Source of the DNA: Lamprocystis purpurea DSM 4197
GTDB lineage: Bacteria > Pseudomonadota > Gammaproteobacteria > Chromatiales > Chromatiaceae
Assembly: GCF_000379525.1 (NCBI RefSeq)
Contig: NZ_KB902441.1
Span: 46,934-96,313 of the forward strand
Direction of reading: 5' to 3'
Length of the DNA stretch: 49,380 nt
A model generated the notes under the pieces. The model was given only the letters and a program-made list of their open reading frames with translations. It searched no databases and had not been told where the DNA came from. This document shows positions 11,423-26,524 of this stretch, piece after piece. Numbering within the stretch: position 1 is the first letter of the stretch; each line of letters begins with the position of its first letter. The position numbers were made by a program, and so were the translations under genes.

Positions 11423-13708
11423 ATGGCAGCCGAGAAAAAACTAGCCGGTTACATCTGCACCGGGTGCGGCATCGGCGAGCGGTTGGATGCCAAACAGCTC
11501 CAGGCCGTGGCGACCCGCGAGGGCAAACTGCCGAGCGTCAAACAACACCCGATGCTGTGCGGCGCCGAGGGCGTCAAGCTGATTCAGGACGACATCGATG
11601 CGGGCAACGCCACTCACATCATGATCGCCGCCTGTTCGCGGCGCTCCAAGGTCGAGGCCTTCAGCTTTCCGACCGTCGCCATGTCACGCGCGAATTTGCG
11701 CGAGGGCGTGATCTGGGCGCGTCCCGAAGGCGATGAGCACCAGGAGACCACCCAGGAGATGGCGGACGACTACATCCGCATGGCGGCGGCCGAGATCAAG
11801 TTCATGACCGTACCGGAGTCGTCCGGCGAGCAGGAGTTGAACAAGACCCTGCTGGTGGTGGGCGGCGGCATGACCGGCATGACCGCGGCGGTCGAGGCGG
11901 CCAAGGCCGGCTACCCGGTGCATCTGGTGTGTGACGAACCGGTGCTGGGCGGGGTCTGGAAGGATCTCTACAAGCGCGTCCCCTTCCGCGCCGCGGCCTT
12001 CGATGTGCCCGGCGGCAACGATGTCGACCTGCCCCAACCCGAGGACCCGGGCCTGGATGACCTGATCGAACAGGTCATGGCCAACGGGCGCATCACGGTG
12101 CACCTGAACGCGAAGATCACCAAAACGTCCGGCGCGCCGGGGCGTTTTTCAGCCGACCTCAGCATGGAGTCGGGCCGCACCCTGACCGAGAACTTCGGCG
12201 CCATCGTTCAGGCCACCGACTACAAGCCCTACGATGCCAATCAACTCCCCGAGTTCGCCTACGGCACGACGCCGGACGTGCTGACCAATTTCGAGTTCGA
12301 ACGGCTCGCCAAGCAGGCCAATGGCGCCGTCATCAAACGCCCGTCGGACGGCCGCGCGGTCAAGTCCGTCGCCTTCATCCAGTGCGCTGGCCAGCGTTCG
12401 AGCAACGCCGGCCATCTGCCCTACTGCTCCGGCTTCTGCTGCACCGAGTCCATCAAACAGGCGATGTATTTCAAGGCGCAGAACCCGGGCTGCGACGCCA
12501 CCATCCTGTTCGACGACCTGCGCACCCCAGGTGCCGCCGGTGAAGACTTCTATCGGTCCGGTCAGCAGGCCATGGTCACCTTCACCAAGGGCCAGGCGTC
12601 CGCGGTCGTCGCCGCGGGCGGCGACCTGCGGGTCAAGTTCAAAGACCTGATCCTCAACGAAGACACCGAGATGGTCTGCGATCTGGTGGTACTCGCCACC
12701 GGCCAGGTGCCCAACACCGGCCCCGACCCCTATGCCCAGCTTGCGGTCGACGAGGCCCCGACCGAGGAAGAAAAGGCCGCTGCCCGCGCCGCGCTGGCGG
12801 TCGCCCCACCCTCGATCCTTAATCTCGACTACCGCCAGGGCACGGACCTGCCGCACCTGAAGCACGGCTTCGTCGACAGCCATTTCATCTGCTTCCCCTA
12901 CGAGACCCGCCGCACCGGCATCTATGCCGCCGGTCCGGTGCGCCGCCCGATGGACCTGAAACAGGCGATGGACGACGCGGTCGGCGCCACCATGAAGGCG
13001 ATTCAGTCACTGGAGAACGCCGCGCGCGGCTCCGCCGCTCACCCGCGGGTTGGCGATCTCTCCTACCCCCGCTTCCGCAAGGAAGGCTGTACCCAGTGCA
13101 AGCGCTGCACCGTGGAATGCCCGTTCGGCGCCATCAACGAGGACGAGCAGCGTTACCCGCAGTTCAATGAGTCGCGCTGCCGCCGCTGCGGCACCTGCAT
13201 GGGCGCCTGTCCGGTGCGTGTCATCTCCTTCGACAACTACTCGGTGGACACCGTCGGCCAGCAGCTCAAGGCCGTGGATGTCCCGGACGAGTTCTCCGAA
13301 AAGCCGCGCATCCTGTGTCTGGCCTGTGAAAACGACGCTTACCCCGCGCTGGACATGGCCGCGCAATCGGGTGAACACATCACCCCCTTCGCGCGCGTCA
13401 TCCCGGTGCGTTGTCTGGGGTCGGTCAGCCTCTCGTGGGTCACGGATGCGCTCAACTCCGGCTATGACGGCATTGTGCTCATGGGCTGCCGCCGTGATGA
13501 CGACTATCAGTGTCATTTCGTGCGCGGTTCCGCGATGGCGGCCGAGCGACTCTCCAAGGTCGGCGACACCCTCACCCAGTTGAACCTGGAAACCGAGCGG
13601 GTGGCGGTCCATGAGGTTGCCATCACCGACCTGAAACGCGCCCCGGCGATCCTCAACGAGATGGCCGAAACCATCACGCGGATCGGCATGAGCCCATTCA
13701 AATTTTAG
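11423..13708 (+). CDS. qmoB: QmoB/HdrA-like FAD and iron-sulfur protein with MvhD domain
   Basis: This 761-residue subunit has an N-terminal cysteine segment (YICTGCGIGE), then an FAD domain (VVGGGMTGMTAAVEAA at about 145-160). The cysteine motif PYCSGFCCTES follows. Two ferredoxin-type [4Fe-4S] motifs lie at about 555-600 (CTQCKRCTVECPFG and CRRCGTCMGACPV). The last 140 residues are an MvhD-like domain with CLACEND, RCLGS and GCRRDDDYQC. This order is that of QmoB, the Qmo subunit that resembles HdrA fused to MvhD. It is the second gene of the qmoAB-hdrCB operon. Confidence 0.9.
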   Translation: MAAEKKLAGYICTGCGIGERLDAKQLQAVATREGKLPSVKQHPMLCGAEGVKLIQDDIDAGNATHIMIAACSRRSKVEAFSFPTVAMSRANLREGVIWARPEGDEHQETTQEMADDYIRMAAAEIKFMTVPESSGEQELNKTLLVVGGGMTGMTAAVEAAKAGYPVHLVCDEPVLGGVWKDLYKRVPFRAAAFDVPGGNDVDLPQPEDPGLDDLIEQVMANGRITVHLNAKITKTSGAPGRFSADLSMESGRTLTENFGAIVQATDYKPYDANQLPEFAYGTTPDVLTNFEFERLAKQANGAVIKRPSDGRAVKSVAFIQCAGQRSSNAGHLPYCSGFCCTESIKQAMYFKAQNPGCDATILFDDLRTPGAAGEDFYRSGQQAMVTFTKGQASAVVAAGGDLRVKFKDLILNEDTEMVCDLVVLATGQVPNTGPDPYAQLAVDEAPTEEEKAAARAALAVAPPSILNLDYRQGTDLPHLKHGFVDSHFICFPYETRRTGIYAAGPVRRPMDLKQAMDDAVGATMKAIQSLENAARGSAAHPRVGDLSYPRFRKEGCTQCKRCTVECPFGAINEDEQRYPQFNESRCRRCGTCMGACPVRVISFDNYSVDTVGQQLKAVDVPDEFSEKPRILCLACENDAYPALDMAAQSGEHITPFARVIPVRCLGSVSLSWVTDALNSGYDGIVLMGCRRDDDYQCHFVRGSAMAAERLSKVGDTLTQLNLETERVAVHEVAITDLKRAPAILNEMAETITRIGMSPFKF

Positions 13709-13721
13709 TAAAAATTTGAAT
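13696..13721 (+). promoter_or_regulatory. AT-rich perfect inverted repeat at the qmoB/hdrC junction
   Basis: attcaaatttt and its exact complement aaaatttgaat form an 11-bp stem around a four-base loop. It overlaps the last codons and the stop of qmoB. It is the most AT-rich spot of the operon and is not a classical GC-stem terminator. It could act as an RNA processing or stability hairpin, or as an operator; the role is inference. Confidence 0.55.
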
Positions 13722-13758
13722 TATTTCAGGTTTAGAACAAATTTGCGGAGAGCGTCTC

Positions 13759-14397
13759 ATGGGCGAACTGAATACGGCGATGATCGAGCGGTATCGCAAC
13801 AGCTTCTTAAAGGAGGTTGAAGCGAATGTCGAGGAGGGTGAATGGGTCAAGATGTGTATGCAGTGCGGCGTGTGCTCCGGCTCCTGCCCGCTCGGCAAGT
13901 TCTGGGAGCATCCGCCCCAGGAGATCTTTATGATGATTCGCGCCGGCAAGCGCGAGGCGGTGTTGCAGTCCGAATCGGTGTGGATGTGCACCTCCTGCTA
14001 CAACTGCATCGTGCGCTGCCCGCGGGAATTGCCGATCACCCACATCATGCACGGTCTGGCGCACTATGCGAAGCGTCTGGGTCTGGTGCCCAAGACCAAC
14101 CCCACGGCCAAGTTTGCCCAGATGTTCTGGGACAATCTGATGGTCAAAGGGCGCATCAATGAGTTGAAGCTCGGCCTCGCGCTCTATTTCATGAACGGCT
14201 TCGGCGATGGCATCAAGGTCGCGCTCAAGAACCAGAAGCTCGGCATGGCGATGATGAAGACCGGGCGGATGAACCCCAAGGAAGCCTTTGGCGGCCATGC
14301 CGTCAAGGACTTGGCCGGCTTCCACAAGGTGCTGAAAAAAGCGCAGGAACTGGAAGATGCCCGCATTGCCCAAAACGGCCCGCCCGCGGGCGCCTGA
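13759..14397 (+). CDS. hdrC: HdrC-like soluble [4Fe-4S] subunit replacing QmoC
   Basis: The 212-residue protein has two ferredoxin-type clusters at about residues 34-90: CMQCGVCSGSCPLG and CTSCYNCIVRCPRELP. This is the HdrC pattern, which relays electrons to HdrB. QmoC fuses such a module to a cytochrome-b-like membrane domain. Here the remaining part is a basic helical tail without a convincing membrane span, so the subunit should be soluble. The ATG has GGAGAG upstream. The hdrB-like gene starts 15 bases after its stop. Confidence 0.88.
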   Translation: MGELNTAMIERYRNSFLKEVEANVEEGEWVKMCMQCGVCSGSCPLGKFWEHPPQEIFMMIRAGKREAVLQSESVWMCTSCYNCIVRCPRELPITHIMHGLAHYAKRLGLVPKTNPTAKFAQMFWDNLMVKGRINELKLGLALYFMNGFGDGIKVALKNQKLGMAMMKTGRMNPKEAFGGHAVKDLAGFHKVLKKAQELEDARIAQNGPPAGA

Positions 14398-14412
14398 GTA
14401 GAGGACCCATCC

Positions 14413-15312
14413 ATGGCCAAGCGCGAATATTCCTTCTACCCCGGGTGCTCCTCCCAGAAGGGCGCCTCCTCATCCAACTATCTGATCTCGGTTCAGACCA
14501 TGTGCGAGGAGCTGGAGGTCCAGCTCAACGAGATCCCCGACTGGAACTGCTGTGCCGCCTCCATCGGCTATGCCGGCGGCGGCGAACTGCCGCGGCTCAC
14601 ACTCTCGGCACGCAACATCGCGCTCAGCGAGCAGCATCACCCCGGTCAGGACATCGTCGCCACCTGCGCCGCCTGCTGGCTGTCCACCCGCGAGGCCGCC
14701 GAACGGCTGCACGAGGACCAGTCGCTGCTGGCCGAATGCAACACGGCACTGGCCGAAGCCGGTCTCAAGCTGCGCAATGAAACACCGATCAAGCACATGG
14801 CCGAGGTGCTGATCGAAGACTTGGGTTATGACGCACTCAAGGCGCGGGTCAAGAAGCCGCTGGAAGGCATCAAGATCGCTGGCTATGTCGGCTGTCAGAC
14901 CAACCGCCCATTCGGCATCGCCGGCGAGTCCTACGAGAACCCCAAATACCTGGACAAGCTGGTCGAGACGCTCGGCGGCGACTCCATTCCGGACTATGAA
15001 AAGAAGGTCCAATGCTGCGGCGGAGCACTGGCCTTCTCGGAACCGGAGAAGTCCCAGGAGATGGTCAAGGGCATCATTGAGGCGGCTTACGACCACGGCG
15101 CCGACCTGATCGTGACGCCTTGTCCGGTGTGCCAGATGAACGTCGAGGTCTACCAGGATCAGATCAACCAGACCTACGGCACCAAGTTCCAGATGCCGGT
15201 GGTCTATTACTCAACCCTGATGGCGGTGGCCTATGGGCGCTCGGCCAAGGATGCGGCGCTGAACGGGCAGATCATCCCGGCCAAGGCGCTGGATGCGCTG
15301 GCGGCGAAGTAG
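14413..15312 (+). CDS. hdrB: HdrB-like CCG-domain subunit
   Basis: The 299-residue protein carries two cysteine-rich CCG domains. The first has YPGCSSQKG, NCCAAS and ATCAACW. The second has GYVGCQTNRPFG, QCCGGALAF and TPCPVCQMN. In methanogens HdrB holds the noncubane clusters that reduce the CoM-CoB heterodisulfide. In bacterial Qmo/Hdr complexes the substrate is not settled and may be a low-molecular or protein disulfide, or a link to quinone. It is the last gene of the operon and is followed by paired palindromes. Confidence 0.9.
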   Translation: MAKREYSFYPGCSSQKGASSSNYLISVQTMCEELEVQLNEIPDWNCCAASIGYAGGGELPRLTLSARNIALSEQHHPGQDIVATCAACWLSTREAAERLHEDQSLLAECNTALAEAGLKLRNETPIKHMAEVLIEDLGYDALKARVKKPLEGIKIAGYVGCQTNRPFGIAGESYENPKYLDKLVETLGGDSIPDYEKKVQCCGGALAFSEPEKSQEMVKGIIEAAYDHGADLIVTPCPVCQMNVEVYQDQINQTYGTKFQMPVVYYSTLMAVAYGRSAKDAALNGQIIPAKALDALAAK

Positions 15313-17023: not shown

Positions 17024-17230
17024 CTACCTAAGACGCTGAAGTCTCCGCAACTCGATGATGCCCTCGGGTGTGATCTCGTAATGCCCCTCACGCAGAACCA
17101 CATACAAATCCCACACGAGGATCCGCAGTGACTCACGCAGGGCGGATGGCCATGTGGCCGTCTCACTGACTGTGGTATCTCCGCCGTCCATCAGTTTCAG
17201 CAGGATCGCAGATTGAATATTTTCCAACAT
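17024..17230 (-). CDS. Small winged-helix-like protein (hypothetical)
   Basis: The 68-residue protein has a helical N-terminal part and the string HYEITPEGIIELRRL near its end, which resembles the beta-wing and last helix of winged-helix regulators. It has no cysteine and no leader-peptide look, so a role as a modified peptide precursor for the downstream oxygenase is possible but less likely. It precedes the oxygenase on the same strand by 96 bases. Family not identified. Confidence 0.55.
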   Translation of the reverse strand: MLENIQSAILLKLMDGGDTTVSETATWPSALRESLRILVWDLYVVLREGHYEITPEGIIELRRLQRLR

Positions 17231-17459
17231 TGAACACCTCGTTTACTTGCTCTCTCTATTCCGCTGCAAGTGACCACTAACGAACGCAACAGGGTGAACA
17301 TGATCGCGACCCTCCTGACGCTTGTCCGAACCGGAGCCCGCGGACTCTACAGACACGCAGATAGCCGTTTGTTGTACTGTCTGAAACTGATGCTACATGG
17401 TATTTATATGATAATGCAAGTATCATCTAACACTCATCAAACACCTTAACCAACGACCC

Positions 17460-17654
17460 ATGGAAAACCGTACCGCCCGCCTTACGATCCTGATCGATCC
17501 CGTCAAGAAGCGGATCTTCGAGGAAATCTGCGCGCAACAAGACGTTACCCCCTCGCAGGTCGTTCGCAAACTGATCCGGCAGTACATCATCGAACACGCA
17601 GGGACGCGCGAGTTGCCGGACTGGCTGGCAGCGCCGGTCGTCAAGGCCGAATGA
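17460..17654 (+). CDS. Ribbon-helix-helix (CopG/Arc-type) small protein
   Basis: The 64-residue protein begins with a short beta strand (RTARLTILIDPVKKRIFEEI) followed by two helices (VTPSQVVRKLIRQYIIEHA). This is the ribbon-helix-helix pattern of CopG, Arc and antitoxin-type DNA-binding proteins. No toxin gene follows: the next reading frames are the hemE remnant and the photoreceptor. It is preceded by an AT-richer stretch (17390-17450) that probably holds its promoter. It could autoregulate or regulate the photoreceptor gene. Confidence 0.7.
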   Translation: MENRTARLTILIDPVKKRIFEEICAQQDVTPSQVVRKLIRQYIIEHAGTRELPDWLAAPVVKAE

Positions 17655-17760
17655 AGGTGTCTCTGTGAAGCGGGGTGGACCAACCAGATCATCGCGCGTG
17701 CAGCCCACCCGCCCAAGCGCTTGATCGAATCGAAACCCTGTGACAGCCTAGAAGATCTCC

Positions 17761-17853
17761 ATGTCCACACTGAAGAACGATACGCTATTGCGCGCACTGC
17801 TCCGCCAGCCGACGGAGTACACGCCGGTTTGGATGATGCGTCCGACAGGCTAA
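17761..17853 (+). pseudogene. hemE: 5' remnant of hemE (uroporphyrinogen decarboxylase), 30 codons
   Basis: An ATG at 17761 opens a 30-codon frame reading [20 protein letters not shown] followed by [10 protein letters not shown] and a TAA stop at 17851. The N-terminus of HemE in gammaproteobacteria reads M[16 protein letters not shown]...TPVWMMRQAGRYLPEY, so about 28 residues align nearly without change. The match then stops exactly where RQAGRYLPEY should follow. No downstream hemE sequence was found in the window. It overlaps no other credible gene, because the photoreceptor starts at 17871 in another frame. It is probably a truncated duplicate or a recombination scar. Confidence 0.75.
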
Positions 17854-17870
17854 CCAGACTCGACCAATCC

Positions 17871-20800
17871 ATGAACTTCGACGACGCGATCGACCTGCAC
17901 GACCCTCAGCACTTGGACGCCCTCTCCGAGGAGCAACTGAACCAACTGCCCTGCGGAGCGATCCGGGTCGATACCGACGGGATCATTCTCTTCTACAGTC
18001 GGTCGCAGGCCGAGATCACGAATCGCGAACCGGAGGCGGTGATCGGGCGAAACTTCTTCTCGGACGTGGCGCCCTGCACCATCGTTCCTGAATTCTACGG
18101 ACGGTTCCGCCGGGGAGTTTTGACCGGCAACCTGAACACCACCTTCGAGTTCGTATTCGATTTCGAGATGCGACCGGTGCAGGTGCGCATTGCGATGCGC
18201 GCTTCCAACCGTCCGGGCGAATTCTGGATCGTCGTCGAGCCGCTACGCCGCTTGCCCCCGCGCAACGAACAGGCGGCCTATGACCTGATCTCCGGCAAGT
18301 TTTGCGAAACCATGGCCGGTCTGTCCGCGGCCTCGTTCGATTTTTCCCAGTGCGATGCGGAACCGATTGCGACCTGCGGCCTGATTCAGCCGTTCGGCTG
18401 CCTGCTGGTGCTCGACCCCAAGACGTTGCAGATCGATGCCTGCAGCGCCAACACGGGCATGTATCTCGGGCTGGACCCAGAGCAATTGCTCGGCGCGCCG
18501 GTGAGTCTGGCCCTGACGACAGGCGCTGCCGATCTGCACGCGTGTCTGGGGGCGGGCGCGGACGCCGCCGCCTTTCGTCCGTCTTTTTTCCGCGTAGCGG
18601 CACCCATGGGCAAACTGCCGCTCGAGGTGCGACTGCATCGCTGGCGCAATCGGCTGTTGTTGGAGGTCGAGCCCTGCGGCGAAATGGCGATGGATGAGCG
18701 TCTGCGCGGTTTCGATGTCGAGGCCTTTCAGCAGCGGTTGCACGCTTGCGCCGATGCGGTCGAGGTCTGCGGCGCGGCCGTCGCGGCGCTACGCCATCTG
18801 AGCGGCTTCGAGCGCGTGGTCGCCTACCGGTTCGAAGCCGAGGACGACGGGGTCGTGATCGCCGAGAGTCTGCTGCCCGATGCCTGGCCTTCGATCCTGG
18901 GGCTGCGCTACCCGGCGACCGACATCCCGCGCCAGGCGCGTGCGCTCTATCGCGAAACGCCGCTGCGCTACGCCCCCAGCCGCGATCACTCCGATGTCCC
19001 GCTGTTGAGCCGAACACTGGCCCCCGACACCATCGATATCGGCATCGCCCATCTGCGCGCCCAGTCGCCGACTCACCGCAACTATCTGAAACGCTTTGCG
19101 GTCAATGGCTCCATGTCGCTGTCTCTTATGTTCGAAGAGCGACTCTGGGGACTGCTGATCTTTCATCATCGCGCCCCGCATCCGGTGACCGCCGATGCGC
19201 GCCGCCGGCTGATCGAACTGGGCGGCTGGCTCTCGACCCGGCTGGCCCTGGTCGAGGAACGCGAACACAATCACGCCAGCGAACTGGGCATGGCAGAGGT
19301 CAACCGGATCGTCGGCGAGATCGACATCGAGCAGCCCTTTCCCGAGAGTTTCATCGGCAAAGAGCAACTGCTGCGCGACCTGATCGGCGCCGACGCCGTG
19401 CAGATCTACCATCATGGCCAACCACTGTTCATCGGGCACGACCTTGGTTTGTCGGCGGACGCGACCGCGGCGTTGCTCGTTTTTCTGCAAACCCGTCCCG
19501 GACCCGTCTGGAGCACCGATTGTCTCTCCGGCGAGTTCGAGCCGGCCGCGATCTATCCGCACCGGCTGGCCGGTGTCATGGTCATCTTCGTCGACGAACG
19601 GCGCGAGGACATCCTGGTGTTCGGGCGCCGGAGCACCAACTACGCCGTGAACTGGGGCGCCGATCCGGCCTCGCTGCCGTTTTCCGGCGGGGATAGCGAC
19701 CGTCCTTTCGGTTGGCCGAACCGAGTCTTCACGGTCTGGCAAGAAGAACGGACCCATCACGCGCGGCCCTGGTCGAAGGTCGCGCTGGCCACCGGGCTGG
19801 CGCTGAAAAATCTGATCCAGCAAGTGATCGTCGCCAATGCGGCGCATTTCAAACGGCTGGCCCAGTCGCTGGCGCGTCAAGGCGACCAATTGCGTCAGTC
19901 ACGCGAGGAGATGCGCCATCGCGCCCTGCATGACGCCCTGACCGGACTCCCGAATCGGGAACGCTTCCGCGAGGCACTGGCCGAGGCGATCGAGTCGAGT
20001 CGGCACGATGGCCGCACCTTCTCGGTCGCGCTTCTGGATATCGACCATTTCAAGACCATCAACGACACCCTTGGCCATGACAAGGGCGATATCCTGCTGT
20101 GCGCACTGGCCGAGCGGATCAGCGCGGTCTTGCCTGGCGATGGGCTGGCCGCCCGACTCGGCGGCGACGAATTCGTGCTGCTGCTGCCGCAACAGCCGGA
20201 CGATGATCCCTTCACGCAAGCGGTCCGGGTGGTCAGATCACTGCGCCAGCCGATCACCGTCGAGGGCGACAGTTTCTCCATCACCTGTTCGCTCGGTCTG
20301 GCCATCGGCGGCGCCGACTCCGACCCCGGCGAACTGCTCAAGCAAGCCGATCTGGCGCTCTACCGGGCCAAGGACGAAGGCCGCAACTGTGCGCGTCCAT
20401 TCGATCAGAACCTGGAAACACAGGCACTGAAACGGCTGGAAATCGACCGCGCCATCCTCGGCCGGTCGCCCATGGACGCGATCGAAATCCTGCTCCAGCC
20501 GCAGCTGCCGATCGCCGCCCTGAGCCGGCAACGACGTTTCGAAGTGCTGGCACGGTGGCGCACCGCGGCCGGCGATCTCATCATGCCGGGCGATTTCATC
20601 CCGGCGGCCGAGCGCAACGGGTTGATCCGCCCGGTGACGGCCGCCGTGCTGCGCCAATCCATCCGGCTGTTGCGCGAACTGCTCGAACAAGATAGCGAAG
20701 GCGCACTGCTCGCCATCAATGTCTCGGCCGCCGACCTGGAGGCCCGTTCTTTTTCAGGACGGTTGCTGGCGGACCTGCACGCGGCGGACGTACCGCCGGA

Positions 20801-21206
20801 TCTGCTCGAAATCGAGATCACCGAATCCCTGCTGCTGCGTATGACACCGAGCGTGAAGGCCTCGCTGCAGATCCTGGATCAGGGAGGGATCAAATTGTCG
20901 CTGGACGATTTTGGAACCGGCTTCAGTTCTATGGCCTATCTGCGTGAACTGCCGATCAGCAGCCTCAAGATCGACCGTGAGTTCATTCGCGGCGTCGAGA
21001 CGCCGCGCGACCGCAATCTGGTCGCCGGCATGATCGCGATGGCGCATTCCATCGGTAAAGAGGTGGTGGCCGAGGGCATCGAAACGCAACGGCAACTGAC
21101 TTTGCTCACCGAGCTCGGCTGTGATTGGGGGCAAGGGTATCTCTGGTCACGTCCTGTGCCGCCGGAACAGGCGCTTGCGACCGCGTGGTTAGCGATCAAG
21201 CCTTGA
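17871..21206 (+). CDS. ppd: PYP-bacteriophytochrome-GGDEF-EAL hybrid photoreceptor (Ppd type)
   Basis: The 1111-residue protein starts with a complete photoactive yellow protein domain (1-125). Key residues keep the canonical numbering: Tyr42, Gln46 (Glu46 in the Halorhodospira protein), Thr50, Arg52, chromophore Cys69 in VAPCT, and Met100. A bacteriophytochrome core follows: biliverdin Cys161 in SQCDAEPI, PATDIP with Asp351, His402 in SPTHRNYL, and a PHY domain to about 650. Next come GGDEF (ARLGGDEF, about 764-768) and EAL (EVLARW, DDFGTGFSS, VAEGIET). The known Ppd of Thermochromatium tepidum has this order. It should turn blue and red light into cyclic-di-GMP changes. The ATG at 17871 is chosen because it restores PYP numbering; a TTG at 17721 would read through the hemE remnant. 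Confidence 0.93.
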   Translation: MNFDDAIDLHDPQHLDALSEEQLNQLPCGAIRVDTDGIILFYSRSQAEITNREPEAVIGRNFFSDVAPCTIVPEFYGRFRRGVLTGNLNTTFEFVFDFEMRPVQVRIAMRASNRPGEFWIVVEPLRRLPPRNEQAAYDLISGKFCETMAGLSAASFDFSQCDAEPIATCGLIQPFGCLLVLDPKTLQIDACSANTGMYLGLDPEQLLGAPVSLALTTGAADLHACLGAGADAAAFRPSFFRVAAPMGKLPLEVRLHRWRNRLLLEVEPCGEMAMDERLRGFDVEAFQQRLHACADAVEVCGAAVAALRHLSGFERVVAYRFEAEDDGVVIAESLLPDAWPSILGLRYPATDIPRQARALYRETPLRYAPSRDHSDVPLLSRTLAPDTIDIGIAHLRAQSPTHRNYLKRFAVNGSMSLSLMFEERLWGLLIFHHRAPHPVTADARRRLIELGGWLSTRLALVEEREHNHASELGMAEVNRIVGEIDIEQPFPESFIGKEQLLRDLIGADAVQIYHHGQPLFIGHDLGLSADATAALLVFLQTRPGPVWSTDCLSGEFEPAAIYPHRLAGVMVIFVDERREDILVFGRRSTNYAVNWGADPASLPFSGGDSDRPFGWPNRVFTVWQEERTHHARPWSKVALATGLALKNLIQQVIVANAAHFKRLAQSLARQGDQLRQSREEMRHRALHDALTGLPNRERFREALAEAIESSRHDGRTFSVALLDIDHFKTINDTLGHDKGDILLCALAERISAVLPGDGLAARLGGDEFVLLLPQQPDDDPFTQAVRVVRSLRQPITVEGDSFSITCSLGLAIGGADSDPGELLKQADLALYRAKDEGRNCARPFDQNLETQALKRLEIDRAILGRSPMDAIEILLQPQLPIAALSRQRRFEVLARWRTAAGDLIMPGDFIPAAERNGLIRPVTAAVLRQSIRLLRELLEQDSEGALLAINVSAADLEARSFSGRLLADLHAADVPPDLLEIEITESLLLRMTPSVKASLQILDQGGIKLSLDDFGTGFSSMAYLRELPISSLKIDREFIRGVETPRDRNLVAGMIAMAHSIGKEVVAEGIETQRQLTLLTELGCDWGQGYLWSRPVPPEQALATAWLAIKP

Positions 21207-21262
21207 TCATCATCCCGGCCAGGTCGTTGGCTGCCGGGTCGTTGGTCCGCACAGCGGACCCT
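21190..21262. terminator. Palindromes between convergent ppd and ligase genes
   Basis: gatcaagccttgatc (about 21194-21208) spans the ppd stop, and ggtccgcacagcggacc (21244-21260) lies immediately before the ligase stop. Both are hairpin-forming. They sit where two convergent transcription units end, so a bidirectional terminator is plausible. No U-tract is present. Confidence 0.45.
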
Positions 21263-22496
21263 ACTGCAAATCCCAATCCGTCGACTTACCGAGCCTCGTC
21301 CGCGGCAACTGCGCACCGACGGTGATGGTTCGGGGCCGCTCCGCGGGCGCTAAGCGTTCGGCGAGCCAGGCGTGAAGCCGCTCGGGCAGGTGCTGCGGAT
21401 CGGCACACCCAGCACCTGGAACGACGAATGCTTTCAGCCGTCCGCCCTGCTCGGCACTGGCCAGACGCACGAGTGCGTCAGCAACCTCCGGATGCTCGCG
21501 GATACAACGCTCGACACGCCGCGGAAACACATTGATCCCGCCGACCTGCACCGCGCCGTCGCGCCGTCCCAGAACATGGAAGCGGTCGTCATCGACCCAC
21601 TGGACCTGATCCGGCAACTCGGTCAGCACCGCCTCGCCAACCGCGGACAGGCGGGCGATGCGTGTGTTTGAGCTGCTATCGCGCAACCACTGCGGCAACA
21701 GCCGGAAAGGCGCATCCGGCGCCGTCCGCTCACCGATGCCGGCCGTCTCCGAGGCACCATAGACCTCGATGATCGCGGCGAACCCCGACTCGCCGAGCCG
21801 CCGCCAGACCGGTTCGGGGCAAGGTGCCGTGGATGAAACGGCAACGATATCCGCAGCGACCGAGACCGGACCGCGTGTCGCCAAGTCAAAAAAAGTCGGA
21901 TGGCCGATCAGCAGGTCCCCCGGCTGGGCCTGTCGCAACACGCTGCCCGGCAGCGCGTCACGCAAGTCGATCACCGGGATGCCCAGGGTGGCCGGCAGCA
22001 TCACGGAAAACAGGAAGCCGTAGATGTGGTGACTGGGTACGGCGCAAAGGAGACGTCGCCGGTCGTGCAACCGGTCGGCAAAGAAAGCAATCTCCTGCTC
22101 CAGAAAAGCCATCCGATGAGTACAGATCTTCGGCCGGCCGGTGGACCCCGAGGTCTGGAAGCTGATCGCCTCATCCCAGCGCGCCCGACTGCGCAGGATC
22201 GTTTCCACCCAATGATCCAATCGAGCGTCCGCCATCAGGGCATCATCGAGCCCGGTCTCGTGCAGGTGAAACTGGACCACGACGGCCGTCGCCAGATCCA
22301 AGAACTCCAGCGAGTCGAGACCCAGCGCCCCGAGATCCGAATGCAAGCCGGCGCCCCCCTGCCCGCCCCGCCCCTGGCACGCATCCGGCGCGCGCCGCAC
22401 CCCGAGCAGGCCGGGCCGCAACCGTGACACCTCCGCCGTGATCAGGTCCGACAGCAGACGCGAGACCGGAGCAGGTGCCCACCAGGGTTTCGACAT
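21261..22496 (-). CDS. pcl: 4-coumarate:CoA ligase of the photoactive yellow protein activation family
   Basis: The 411-residue AMP-forming ligase has the P-loop TSGSTGRPK, the adenylate motif EVYGASETAG, LGRRDGAVQVGGINVFP, and a C-terminal catalytic lysine in TRLGKSTDW. It is much shorter than plant 4CL (about 550), as expected for the PYP-type ligases that make p-coumaroyl-CoA for the PYP chromophore. It converges on the PYP-phytochrome gene, which supports this role. An N-terminal LGLDSLEFLDL stretch resembles an acyl-carrier motif. The ATG at 22496 is chosen for GAGG five bases upstream. The tyrosine ammonia lyase that supplies p-coumarate is not in the window. Confidence 0.8.
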   Translation of the reverse strand: MSKPWWAPAPVSRLLSDLITAEVSRLRPGLLGVRRAPDACQGRGGQGGAGLHSDLGALGLDSLEFLDLATAVVVQFHLHETGLDDALMADARLDHWVETILRSRARWDEAISFQTSGSTGRPKICTHRMAFLEQEIAFFADRLHDRRRLLCAVPSHHIYGFLFSVMLPATLGIPVIDLRDALPGSVLRQAQPGDLLIGHPTFFDLATRGPVSVAADIVAVSSTAPCPEPVWRRLGESGFAAIIEVYGASETAGIGERTAPDAPFRLLPQWLRDSSSNTRIARLSAVGEAVLTELPDQVQWVDDDRFHVLGRRDGAVQVGGINVFPRRVERCIREHPEVADALVRLASAEQGGRLKAFVVPGAGCADPQHLPERLHAWLAERLAPAERPRTITVGAQLPRTRLGKSTDWDLQ

Positions 22497-22577
22497 CATG
22501 ACCTCATACGCGCCTGGCCACATCGAGCAACGGCCCTAGAAAGAACATCAAGCCACCCCGGAAGATGACAGTCCCTC

Positions 22578-22671
22578 GTGGGAGCGGCGTCCCGCCGCGA
22601 TGCGGTGTCGCGGTGACCGCGAACGCTGCGGCTGCGCGCCCGGCCCCGTCGCGGCGGGACGCCGCTCCCAC
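22578..22671. repeat. REPIN-like pair of inverted REP sequences
   Basis: gtgggagcggcgtcccgccgcga at 22578-22600 is matched by its near-exact reverse complement tcgcggcgggacgccgctcccac at 22649-22671. Each arm also folds on itself (ggcgtcccgcc). Two REPs facing each other about 48 bases apart are the REPIN design mobilised by RAYT transposases; no such transposase is in the window. It lies between the ligase and membrane-protein genes. Confidence 0.75.
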
Positions 22672-22768
22672 GCAGTCGCTACGCGACTTGCGGACAGGCA
22701 GTCGTTGGCCGGAACGACGATCAAGGCCGCGCGAGCTGGCATAGGATGTGATACGGATCGCCTTCGAC

Positions 22769-23308
22769 TCAGGTTTCGTGATGTTGCGCCGAGCGTTCCT
22801 CGGGAATAATCCGCGCCTCGGGGTTGGGGAACCGCTCGACCACCCAGGCCGGCAATTTTGCCTGGTTGGCGTGATAGAGTGCGTCGGATTCCACGATAAC
22901 CAGCACCAGCACCGTGACCATCACCGGCAGGATGCCGGTTCCGACGACCAGGGCGATCACCGCCTCCTTCATCATTCCGCCATAGGTATGCGCCGCCCAG
23001 CCGAGCACCAGGAACACAAGCAGCATCAGCAGCATGAAGAGAAAGATGCGACTGCGGCGCGCGCACACCTGCCAGTGACACATCACATACCAGGGGTCGC
23101 TGGCCTTGGACCGATTGGCCCGCCATAGAATGTAACCCAACAGGCTGAATGAAATGGCGGGGATGATCGCCATCACCCAGGGGAACGACCCCGCCAGACC
23201 TCCGGCGCCAACGGTGATCAGAATGTGGTTGCCGATCAGGTTGGTCAGAAAGATCTCGTGAGGCACGTTGGCTCGTTTGATCTGGTCGTTGCTGACGTCA
23301 AAGCGCAT
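22769..23308 (-). CDS. Small hypothetical membrane protein
   Basis: From the ATG at 23308 the product has 179 residues (MRFDVSNDQIKRANVPHEIF at its start). About four hydrophobic spans are seen: around residues 25-60 (HILITVGAGG to LLGYILW), 75-95 (IFLFMLLMLLVFLVLGW) and 110-130 (VIALVVGTGILPVMVTVLV). The C-terminus is charged and cytoplasmic or exposed. The longer reading upstream to 23560 is composition-wise non-coding. Family not identified. It is divergent from the sigma54-driven SIR2-like gene. Confidence 0.65.
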   Translation of the reverse strand: MRFDVSNDQIKRANVPHEIFLTNLIGNHILITVGAGGLAGSFPWVMAIIPAISFSLLGYILWRANRSKASDPWYVMCHWQVCARRSRIFLFMLLMLLVFLVLGWAAHTYGGMMKEAVIALVVGTGILPVMVTVLVLVIVESDALYHANQAKLPAWVVERFPNPEARIIPEERSAQHHET

Positions 23309-23476
23309 GATGTGGAACAGGGTCTGCAAAAGGGCTCGGAAGCCGGGAGTCGGATAGGCGGATGGCTTCGCCCGATCAACGCCGCGATGCCTGCCGCCGG
23401 CTCGCCACGCGTGGGCCTGATACATCCTACGCGGTTCAAGCGCAGGATGCTTGCGGACCTGGACCTGGTTCTCGCC

Positions 23477-23492
23477 TGTAATAAAAGCGACA
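23477..23492 (+). promoter_or_regulatory. Candidate NifA upstream activator site
   Basis: TGT-N10-ACA fits the NifA binding consensus. It lies about 214 bases before the sigma54 promoter of the SIR2-like gene, slightly distal but within the known range for NifA. The motif is short, so chance occurrence is possible. Confidence 0.5.
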
Positions 23493-23690
23493 AGGCACGT
23501 CAAGTAACCTGCGAGACACCTCAGCCCATGGCGTGACCCATCTGTCTTAAATCCTCTCACAGCGACACGCAGGCACGCAGAAGAAGCAACTCGCAGCGGC
23601 GCCTTACCTCTCTGAGATCAAGACCAAGAGCGGGTCAGCCAGACGCCGGGCAGCGGCGCGATCAAGACATAGCACGTCGTTCGACATTAC

Positions 23691-25170: not shown

Positions 25171-26112
25171 TCATTTCATCATGCAATGCGGCGACATCCG
25201 CAGCAAGGCCCGCGCCTGATCGCGGCAGGCGATTGCCGCCTTAGGCTCCAAGGCCGTCAGCCAGCGTCGGGGAATGGCGTCGTATCCATAGAGCGCACCG
25301 GCGATCATCCCCAGGATCGCGCCCGTGGTATCGGCATCGCCGCCGCGATTCACCACATCGATCAGCGCGCCCTCAAAGGTGTCGGTGGCAAACAGTGCCT
25401 GAAATACGGCCCGCAGGGTCTCGACCAGAAAACCACCGGGGTTTTCCATGCGCCGCCGGTCGTAGCGATAGAGGGGTTGCTCCGCCACCAGCGCCTCGGC
25501 CAAACCCTTGAGATGGCCCATATCGCCCCCGAGTAAGGCGGCCTGCACCATACGGATGACGGTGAGCGTCCCGGTGTCGCCCACGGCACTATGGTGCGTC
25601 GTATGGGACTGAATACGATTGGCTTGAGCGACCAGACTGCTTTCGGCACCCAGCGTGCACAGCGCGATTGGCAATGACCGCATACAGGCGCCGTTGCCCG
25701 CATCGTAGTCGTTCTCCGGCATCTGTGTCGCACCGGTCAGACGGTACTGGGAGATGCCGCGGCGCACCGTATGACCGATGTCCACCGGCTTGCCGCGCAT
25801 CCACTCGCTGAAAGCGGCCGCCACGGCCCCTGCCTCCACCCGCCCCTCGGCCAGGATCGCGGTCCCTAAGGCCAGGCTCATCTCGGTATCGTCGGTCACC
25901 TGGCCCTTACGCAGCCGTAACCAGCCGCCGCCGCGAATATCCTGATGAATACCGAACTGCTCATGGATCTCGCGCGGCGTCAGAAACTCGACCGTGGCGC
26001 CCAAGGCGTCCCCCACGGCCATCCCCACGTAGGCCCCGACCGCCCGCGCTTGCAGCGCGTCGGCCGAACACTCGGACCCGGACAGATCAGCTGTCAGTTC
26101 CAAAACAAACAT
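25171..26112 (-). CDS. draG: ADP-ribosyl-[dinitrogen reductase] hydrolase DraG
   Basis: DraG removes ADP-ribose from an arginine of the nitrogenase Fe protein and so reactivates it after an ammonium or darkness switch-off. The 313-residue protein has the dimetal motifs VTDDTEMSLAL near residue 75 and NRGGDADTTGAILG near residue 255, and the fold signature GMAVGDALGATVEF. The ATG at 26112 is chosen because the longer reading to 26202 adds a low-complexity segment overlapping the preceding gene region. It is the last gene of the nifB operon. Its counterpart draT is not in the window. Confidence 0.9.
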   Translation of the reverse strand: MFVLELTADLSGSECSADALQARAVGAYVGMAVGDALGATVEFLTPREIHEQFGIHQDIRGGGWLRLRKGQVTDDTEMSLALGTAILAEGRVEAGAVAAAFSEWMRGKPVDIGHTVRRGISQYRLTGATQMPENDYDAGNGACMRSLPIALCTLGAESSLVAQANRIQSHTTHHSAVGDTGTLTVIRMVQAALLGGDMGHLKGLAEALVAEQPLYRYDRRRMENPGGFLVETLRAVFQALFATDTFEGALIDVVNRGGDADTTGAILGMIAGALYGYDAIPRRWLTALEPKAAIACRDQARALLRMSPHCMMK

Positions 26113-26173
26113 CGGCTCTGCTCGACTGGTTGAACGGGTCGACGGAATGGGTCGACGACCGGGGCAGACCTGC

Positions 26174-26524
26174 TCAGTATTGCACCAGGAGGTCCTCGTC
26201 ACGCACGATCATCTGGCAGGCCAGGCGCCATTCGGATGGGATGTCGTCCACTGCCATCTGGTCGATGTCTTCCTTGCTGATCTTCCCGAGCTGGCGCAGC
26301 ACCACCTTTTCCTTCTCGGTCAGCAGACCGCCCATGCGCTGGTTCTTGTTGTCCACACTCGTGACGCGCACCACACAGTTCCCGCATTCGCCATCCTGGC
26401 AATCATGATGAACTGGGACCTTATGCTCCTTGGCCAGCTTGAGCAGGGTCTCGGTGTGGCTTCCGGCCACGGCATAGACCGTCTTATCCTTATAGTCAGG
26501 GTTTGAAAACGTAACGAGTGCCAT
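26174..26524 (-). CDS. [2Fe-2S] ferredoxin resembling Shethna protein II (FeSII)
   Basis: The 116-residue ferredoxin has cluster cysteines Cys42, Cys47, Cys50 (DCQDGECGNC) and Cys103. Its end, RLACQMIVRDEDLLVQY, is strikingly close to the end of the Azotobacter FeSII protein (RLACQTIVTDEDLLVEF). The loop between the cysteines also matches FeSII (LLTEKEKVVLRQLGKISK). FeSII binds nitrogenase under oxygen stress and gives conformational protection. The same role here is inferred from sequence memory and from the nif operon context. It lies 61 bases before draG. Confidence 0.85.
   Translation of the reverse strand: MALVTFSNPDYKDKTVYAVAGSHTETLLKLAKEHKVPVHHDCQDGECGNCVVRVTSVDNKNQRMGGLLTEKEKVVLRQLGKISKEDIDQMAVDDIPSEWRLACQMIVRDEDLLVQY

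Follow-up and report, generated by a model that had tools for sequence, protein, structure and literature searches.

How one protein might combine two colours of light in a single cyclic di-GMP (c-di-GMP) enzyme, and with what kind of photoswitches, is the question raised by a gene of Lamprocystis purpurea DSM 4197 (Chromatiaceae), located in the 49,380-nucleotide stretch of DNA analysed here (the window; NZ_KB902441.1, positions 46,934-96,313 of the forward strand, from a genome, G000, of 6,904,778 bases on 211 contigs). There is hardly any doubt that its product, in this purple sulfur bacterium, is a Ppd, a receptor type already known, if little studied, that joins a photoactive yellow protein (PYP) domain, a bacteriophytochrome module and GGDEF and EAL output domains. 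What makes it interesting is that Ppds as a class are changed in two places that normally matter for switching, residue 46 of PYP and the tongue of the phytochrome, so that the expected spectra are doubtful.

The ppd coding sequence (17871-21206, plus strand; 1111 residues plus stop, from the frame, its motifs, and Pfam and TIGR models) has no internal stop, and Pfam places its domains in the order PAS (residues 21-112, i.e. the PYP), PAS_2, GAF, PHY, GGDEF and EAL, which bears out an earlier, sequence-only reading of this DNA as a complete PYP-phytochrome-GGDEF-EAL frame. The residues named in that reading (Tyr42, Gln46, Thr50, Arg52, Cys69, Met100 and Cys161, with PATDIP and GGDEF) are likewise all in place, the motifs DFSQC (the Cys of which is Cys161), PATDIP and GGDEF starting at residues 157, 348 and 764; the EAL domain that it reported is present (E 8e-60), but its signature, at residues 891-893, is written EVL. 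Among named relatives the closest are 'Chromatiaceae bacterium ppb02' and 'uncultured Lamprocystis sp.', both metagenome assemblies; identity to them is 95% across the N-terminal 140 residues, and 94% and 93% across the whole protein. The open frame extends upstream as far as a TTG at 17721; the ATG at 17871 is the likely start codon, because similarity to the two closest relatives fades approximately 30 bases upstream of it. A scan of 17200-21600 for promoters and terminators gave no signal above that of shuffled sequences. In comparisons with the same two relatives (93-94% protein identity), dN/dS is 0.05-0.21 in each domain, and lowest in GGDEF (0.05-0.07); all the domains are under purifying selection, which rules out a decaying gene.

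The Ppd of Thermochromatium tepidum was reportedly described by Kyndt in 2004 and 2005. Among the 194 genomes of our family sample, we infer that G166 is T. tepidum because its reaction-centre M subunit agrees with PDB 3wmm_M, which we take to be a T. tepidum structure, at all but one of 325 residues, and because its PYP carries Leu46 and Ala50. Ala50 is given for T. tepidum PYP in PMC12826048, where the T. tepidum Ppd is cited as a PYP/bacteriophytochrome/GGDEF-EAL protein, and an E46L class is named in Fig. 3 of PMC9664959. When the window protein is aligned with that of G166, as the sequence-only reading had proposed for T. tepidum Ppd, identity is 66.3% over 1105 residues, and in a midpoint-rooted tree of the photosensory part the 22 full-length Ppds form one clade (support 100/100) apart from three Ppr-like proteins; together these establish common descent along the whole length and uphold the proposed Ppd identity. 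The other features by which we recognised a Ppd are all found in the window protein, i.e. an N-terminal PYP domain with Cys69, PAS-GAF-PHY with an N-terminal biliverdin-type Cys, and a C-terminal GGDEF domain followed by EAL. The two Ppds have the same domains in the same order, both lack the PRxSF motif considered below (PTREF in G166), and both genes have a 4-coumarate-CoA ligase-like gene (pCL) beside them; they differ in that G166 has Leu46/Ala50 whereas the window Ppd has Gln46/Thr50, and in that pCL is upstream of ppd on the same strand in G166 but convergent in the window.

Ppd-type PYPs occur in 24 of the 194 family genomes and stand-alone PYP alone in three more; another 35 genomes hit the PYP model only weakly (E 2e-6 or worse), and these hits were taken to be other PAS domains. 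Across the phylum such proteins can be called rare, as in the sequence-only reading, since a phylum-wide sample of 398 genomes held no Ppd apart from that of the window, but within the host's family they cannot; the published tally is 15 PYP-phytochrome-GGDEF/EAL proteins and 37 of the PYP-phytochrome-kinase type (PMC12826048). PYP matches at E <= 1e-15 were present in five genomes of the phylum-wide sample, comprising that of the window, three with Ppr-like frames (900-910 residues, the kinase part judged by eye) and one with a 185-residue frame. The other Chromatiaceae Ppds (from Chromatium, Halochromatium, Lamprobacter and Lamprocystis) are 53-94% identical, differ at residue 46 (Gln, Glu, His or Leu) and in the placement of pCL and heme oxygenase genes, and share the architecture in 22 of 24 genes. 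The remaining two have broken frames (L012 of G181 and L056 of G026) and stand outside the 22-row alignment, only their PYP ends being read, for residue 46. L056 (7461-8776) matches residues 1-307 and 964-1103 only, its middle being gone, and still has pCL directly upstream. Like the window Ppd, Ppr of Rhodospirillum centenum has PYP followed by PAS-GAF-PHY, with a similar PYP fold (1mzu), but its output is a histidine kinase (PMC2993699), whereas the Pfam scan found no kinase domain in the window Ppd.

The PYP domain (residues 1-125; 17871-18245, plus strand), assigned by TIGR model, alignment and structure match, carries Y, Q, T, R, C and M at positions 42, 46, 50, 52, 69 and 100. Residues 15-123 match TIGR02373 (photo_yellow) at E 1.2e-36 and 125.5 bits, under the curated cut-off of 143.05; that cut-off is exceeded in only six of the 194 family genomes, most PYPs of the host's family scoring below it. 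The same residues align without gaps to Halorhodospira halophila PYP chains (E 1e-33), and in Foldseek searches the predicted domain matches PYP crystal structures (best E 1.8e-13, TM 0.80), including that of R. centenum Ppr (1mzu_B, TM 0.80/0.90), although the model was built on ten sequences with a mean pLDDT of 76.8 and three of the five models were poor (50, 37, 36). The gapless alignment and the fold match sustain the PYP fold that had been proposed and rule out an ordinary PAS domain at the N terminus.

The numbering of this PYP is canonical, as the sequence-only reading held, but residue 46 (codon 18006-18008) is not: it is Gln, whereas among 984 PYPs 97.1% have Glu46 and 2.6% have Gln46 (PMC12826048). 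Among the 23 Ppds with Cys69, residue 46 is Gln in 18, Glu in three, His in one (Chromatium weissei) and Leu in one (G166). That most Ppds have Gln46 is not wholly new, given the remark in PMC9664959 that E46Q is concentrated in the PYP clade that holds Ppd; natural Gln46 PYPs are, however, described as still to be studied in PMC12826048. In H. halophila PYP the E46Q substitution shifts absorption to the red (PMC9664959), and Table 1 of PMC12826048 gives 465/358 nm for the PYP of T. tepidum. Because it has Gln46 with Thr50, the window PYP may be red-shifted, and our guess is a blue-absorbing form at ~450-465 nm rather than the 430 nm anticipated in the sequence-only reading, which now appears unlikely; the same pair argues for a photocycle that would lack the usual proton donor, Glu46. 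Cys69 (codon 18075-18077 in the window) is kept in 21 of the 22 full-length Ppds. The 24th Ppd (L062, from the complete genome G081) is a natural case of its loss, with Gln46 and Ala69 and with no pCL match at E <= 1e-30 in its genome, and has probably lost its blue pigment.

The phytochrome module comprises PAS_2 (residues 161-268; 18351-18674), GAF (297-449; 18759-19217, with the PATDIP codons at 18912-18929) and PHY (481-655; 19311-19835), all assigned by Pfam on the plus strand. Cys161 (codon 18351-18353), the presumed biliverdin attachment site, and the surrounding pocket align with those of solved bacteriophytochromes. By contrast, the PHY tongue reads PNRVF (residues 616-620; 19716-19730) where bacteriophytochromes have PRxSF. 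The motif is altered in all 22 full-length Ppds, with Arg kept in two, Ser in one and both in none; Pro is kept in 17 and changed in five, and the third place is Arg in 19. The register of the tongue was set by the flanking WG, F and W and is less sure in five Ppds of one genus (g38). PRxSF is present in all of the 30 best-scoring of more than 150 other PHY proteins of the family, a control set that favours canonical proteins, weaker matches lying outside it, as well as in the three Ppr-like proteins, which have PRRSF and IHVPG or IHIPG, neither being kept in the window Ppd, and in both other PHY proteins of the host genome (one among the 30, the other L065). By published bounds a count of 39 residues is obtained for the window Ppd compared with 32 (+7), and Phe, Asp and Leu occupy three trait positions, the traits being neither exclusive nor universal according to the paper.

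PadC-EAL proteins (BphG1 of Rhodobacter sphaeroides and relatives) share PAS-GAF-PHY-GGDEF-EAL with the window Ppd, including the biliverdin Cys, DIP, GGDEF and EXL motifs, but the window protein has PYP added in front and its PNRVF lacks the PRXSF demanded by the published definition (PMC9587094), which rules out the PadC-EAL class. A PDB search also turned up full-length IsPadC (5llw). RpBphP3 of Rhodopseudomonas palustris is a natural case of a changed motif, with Thr for Pro, and forms a near-red state instead of the far-red-absorbing (Pfr) state; it was the only bacteriophytochrome without this Pro known to the authors of PMC6126659 and PMC10834066. RpBphP3 thus changes Pro, whereas the window Ppd keeps Pro and changes Arg and Ser. 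No published statement on the absence of PRxSF in Ppds was found in the open-access literature searched: PMC12826048 and PMC9664959 make no mention of PRXSF, the tongue or Pfr, PMC9587094 uses PRXSF as an entry criterion without mentioning PYP, and PMC10834066, the one examined for this among six papers that mention both photoactive yellow protein and PRXSF, names neither Ppd nor tepidum.

Because the tongue lacks PRxSF, an ordinary switch between the red-absorbing (Pr) and Pfr states with a band near 750 nm is doubtful for the window phytochrome; we would expect the protein to bleach or to form little stable Pfr. The Arg of PRxSF bridges to the Asp of PASDIP in Pr, and S474A in SaBphP1 abolishes its weak Pfr signature (PMC6126659). 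We nonetheless considered that Pr/Pfr switching persists despite the changed tongue, with PYP and phytochrome independently driving the cyclase and the phosphodiesterase in opposite directions, as the sequence-only reading envisaged. The residues checked in the pocket outside the tongue (Cys161, Asp351, Tyr360, His402, Tyr405, His432 and Trp595) are kept in all 22 Ppds, both catalytic sites look complete, and the third residue of PNRVF, an Arg, might form the salt bridge instead. With PRxSF lost throughout the class, the effect of Ser-to-Ala substitution in SaBphP1, and no case in the literature examined of one protein splitting two colours between GGDEF and EAL, we regard this alternative as unlikely.

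The GGDEF domain (residues 685-839; 19923-20387, plus strand; Pfam E 5e-43) keeps its motif and catalytic neighbours in all 22 Ppds, and the EAL domain (873-1095; 20487-21155, plus strand) keeps its catalytic positions in all 22 save for one D1013N, with EVL as its signature throughout. The Arg of the RxxD inhibitory site (I-site) is replaced by Pro in each of the 22. Taking the GGDEF, EAL and RxxD positions to have their usual roles, as we presume, the protein could act both as cyclase and as phosphodiesterase, and its product would not inhibit it via the usual site; that both activities are real we put at about even.

The explanation that we favour is of a Ppd with loaded chromophores, a red-driven cyclase and gating by blue light, to which as a whole we give a somewhat better than even chance. 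The neighbouring ligase would activate p-coumarate for Cys69 and a heme oxygenase encoded on another contig would supply biliverdin. Red light would then drive the phytochrome and, via the PHY-GGDEF helix, raise cyclase activity, while the EAL domain would break c-di-GMP down as a standing phosphodiesterase; a light-raised cyclase with a standing phosphodiesterase is favoured by analogy with PadC-EAL proteins (PMC9587094). Blue light would mainly alter the duration of the phytochrome signal, or its recovery, rather than drive the EAL domain separately. By its title, Kyndt 2007 reportedly concerns such a blue-light effect on the duration of the phytochrome signal in R. centenum Ppr. That the two colours divide the labour in this way is a tentative proposal, which we would think somewhat more likely wrong than right. 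Held with similar reserve is the broader idea that the Ppd class has rebuilt both photoswitches, with a PYP mostly lacking Glu46 and a phytochrome that, lacking PRxSF, signals via a bleached or near-red state, blue light gating how long a brief red-light signal, which sets c-di-GMP, persists. If so, Ppds offer a natural Gln/Glu/His/Leu series at the colour-tuning position 46, most of those compared being of the Gln46 type that PMC12826048 calls unstudied, with near relatives having Glu, His and Leu. Ppds also depart from PRxSF as a class, mostly at Arg and Ser, unlike the case of RpBphP3, and would constitute a natural test of how much signalling depends on the tongue and Pfr and of the way in which a single c-di-GMP enzyme integrates two colours.

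Chromophore loading can be assessed from the genome context. The window pCL gene (21261-22523, minus strand; AMP-binding domains; TIGR02372 E 2.4e-92) is convergent with ppd, with 54 bp between the stop codons; its 309.6 bits are under the cut-off of 334.7, above which no match was found in any of the 194 family genomes. A pCL match (E <= 1e-40) is present in 25 of the 27 genomes with PYP or Ppd compared with 1 of the 167 without, a few of the matches being fragments; the two genomes with PYP or Ppd but no pCL are G081, with its Ala69, and G190, which is 83% complete. In 15 of the 24 Ppd genes, that of the window included, pCL lies within 0.9 kb of ppd, and in one more (G185) it is 6 kb away, the distances in relatives being between alignment ends rather than gene ends; in L014 the only ligase match beside ppd is weak (38%). 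Heme oxygenase (PF01126) is found in 22 of the 24 Ppd genomes compared with 39 of the 170 others, and G156 and G119, which have one PHY match each (in G119 its Ppd) and a heme oxygenase, favour a link specific to Ppd. The 'always' of PMC9664959 on heme oxygenase near ppd disagrees with our finding of the gene close to ppd in only three genomes (G119, G137 and G098), in the order ppd-pCL-heme oxygenase on one strand. A heme oxygenase gene beside the window ppd was rejected: the minus-strand frames 22548-23126 and 22769-23560 have no Pfam match. Overall, the genome context supports loading with p-coumarate and, less specifically, biliverdin; both chromophores are quite probably bound.

Several points weigh against the favoured explanation. 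The sole PF01126 match in the host genome is on contig C157, not near ppd, and is weak (20.6 bits alone, 36.4 with neighbours in frame; cut-off 23). Nor is heme oxygenase tied to Ppd: PHY proteins occur in 76 of the 194 genomes, and PHY matches without any PF01126 match are seen in five genus mates (G035, G079, G107, G127 and G142). The compared genomes are kin, and Fisher values for co-occurrence consequently overstate independence. A search for aromatic ammonia lyase (PF00221) was negative for the host genome and for all but one of the other 23 Ppd genomes. The role given to blue light derives from a title about another protein, Ppr, and a full-length AlphaFold model of the Ppd (nine sequences; mean pLDDT 50.6) was too poor for use.

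The lyase result bears on a second alternative, that in the cell PYP is not loaded with p-coumarate, being empty or carrying another ligase-activated acid, and acts as a structural or chemical sensor. Since the lyase occurs in only one of the 24 Ppd genomes (G125), most Ppd bacteria have no evident p-coumarate source; it is present in two of the three PYP-only genomes and is always on the contig of a stand-alone PYP, which in G125 also carries pCL but not ppd. The Ppd of G081 has moreover lost Cys69. Against this, pCL tracks PYP as described above and is missing where residue 69 is Ala, and PMC9664959 reports an adjacent lyase for only some functional PYPs (at least 10%) and proposes that p-coumarate may be obtained in other ways; we consider an unloaded PYP improbable. 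Much the same low probability attaches to the idea that only EAL matters in the cell, as a phosphodiesterase insensitive or weakly sensitive to light with a regulatory GGDEF. In its favour, many tandems have one inactive domain and a greater weight of EAL activity is suggested for PadC-EALs (PMC9587094), and the host encodes numerous additional GGDEF/EAL proteins (54 other matches to Ppd, most in the GGDEF/EAL part); against it, the catalytic positions of GGDEF are kept in all 22 Ppds and its dN/dS is the lowest in the protein.

Other observations were made in the host genome. On contig C157 (L064, 5064-10267) the heme oxygenase gene shares its last four bases with the beginning of a frame of 1516 residues that ends in GGDEF-EAL, the earlier part of which looks CheB/CheR- and PAS-like by eye. 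On contig C33 (L066, 3725-5077) lies an apparently broken phytochrome-EAL gene, seen as overlapping frames with pieces that resemble phytochrome and EAL. Directly upstream of ppd, a 30-codon frame (17761-17853, plus strand) resembles the 5' end of hemE, the intact copy of which, on contig C14, it matches at ~81% DNA identity (69 columns); in L009 and L017 the piece is absent upstream of ppd, and it is probably a relic of rearrangement. It is preceded by a small ribbon-helix-helix gene (17460-17654, plus strand; RHH_9, E 1.4e-38), which had no match near ppd in the relatives searched. Further away in the window are a heterodisulfide reductase-like gene row (11423-15312, plus strand), with HdrA-like, HdrC-like and HdrB-like genes, and an ADP-ribosyl-[dinitrogen reductase] hydrolase gene (25171-26202, minus strand), which scores above the TIGR02662 cut-off.

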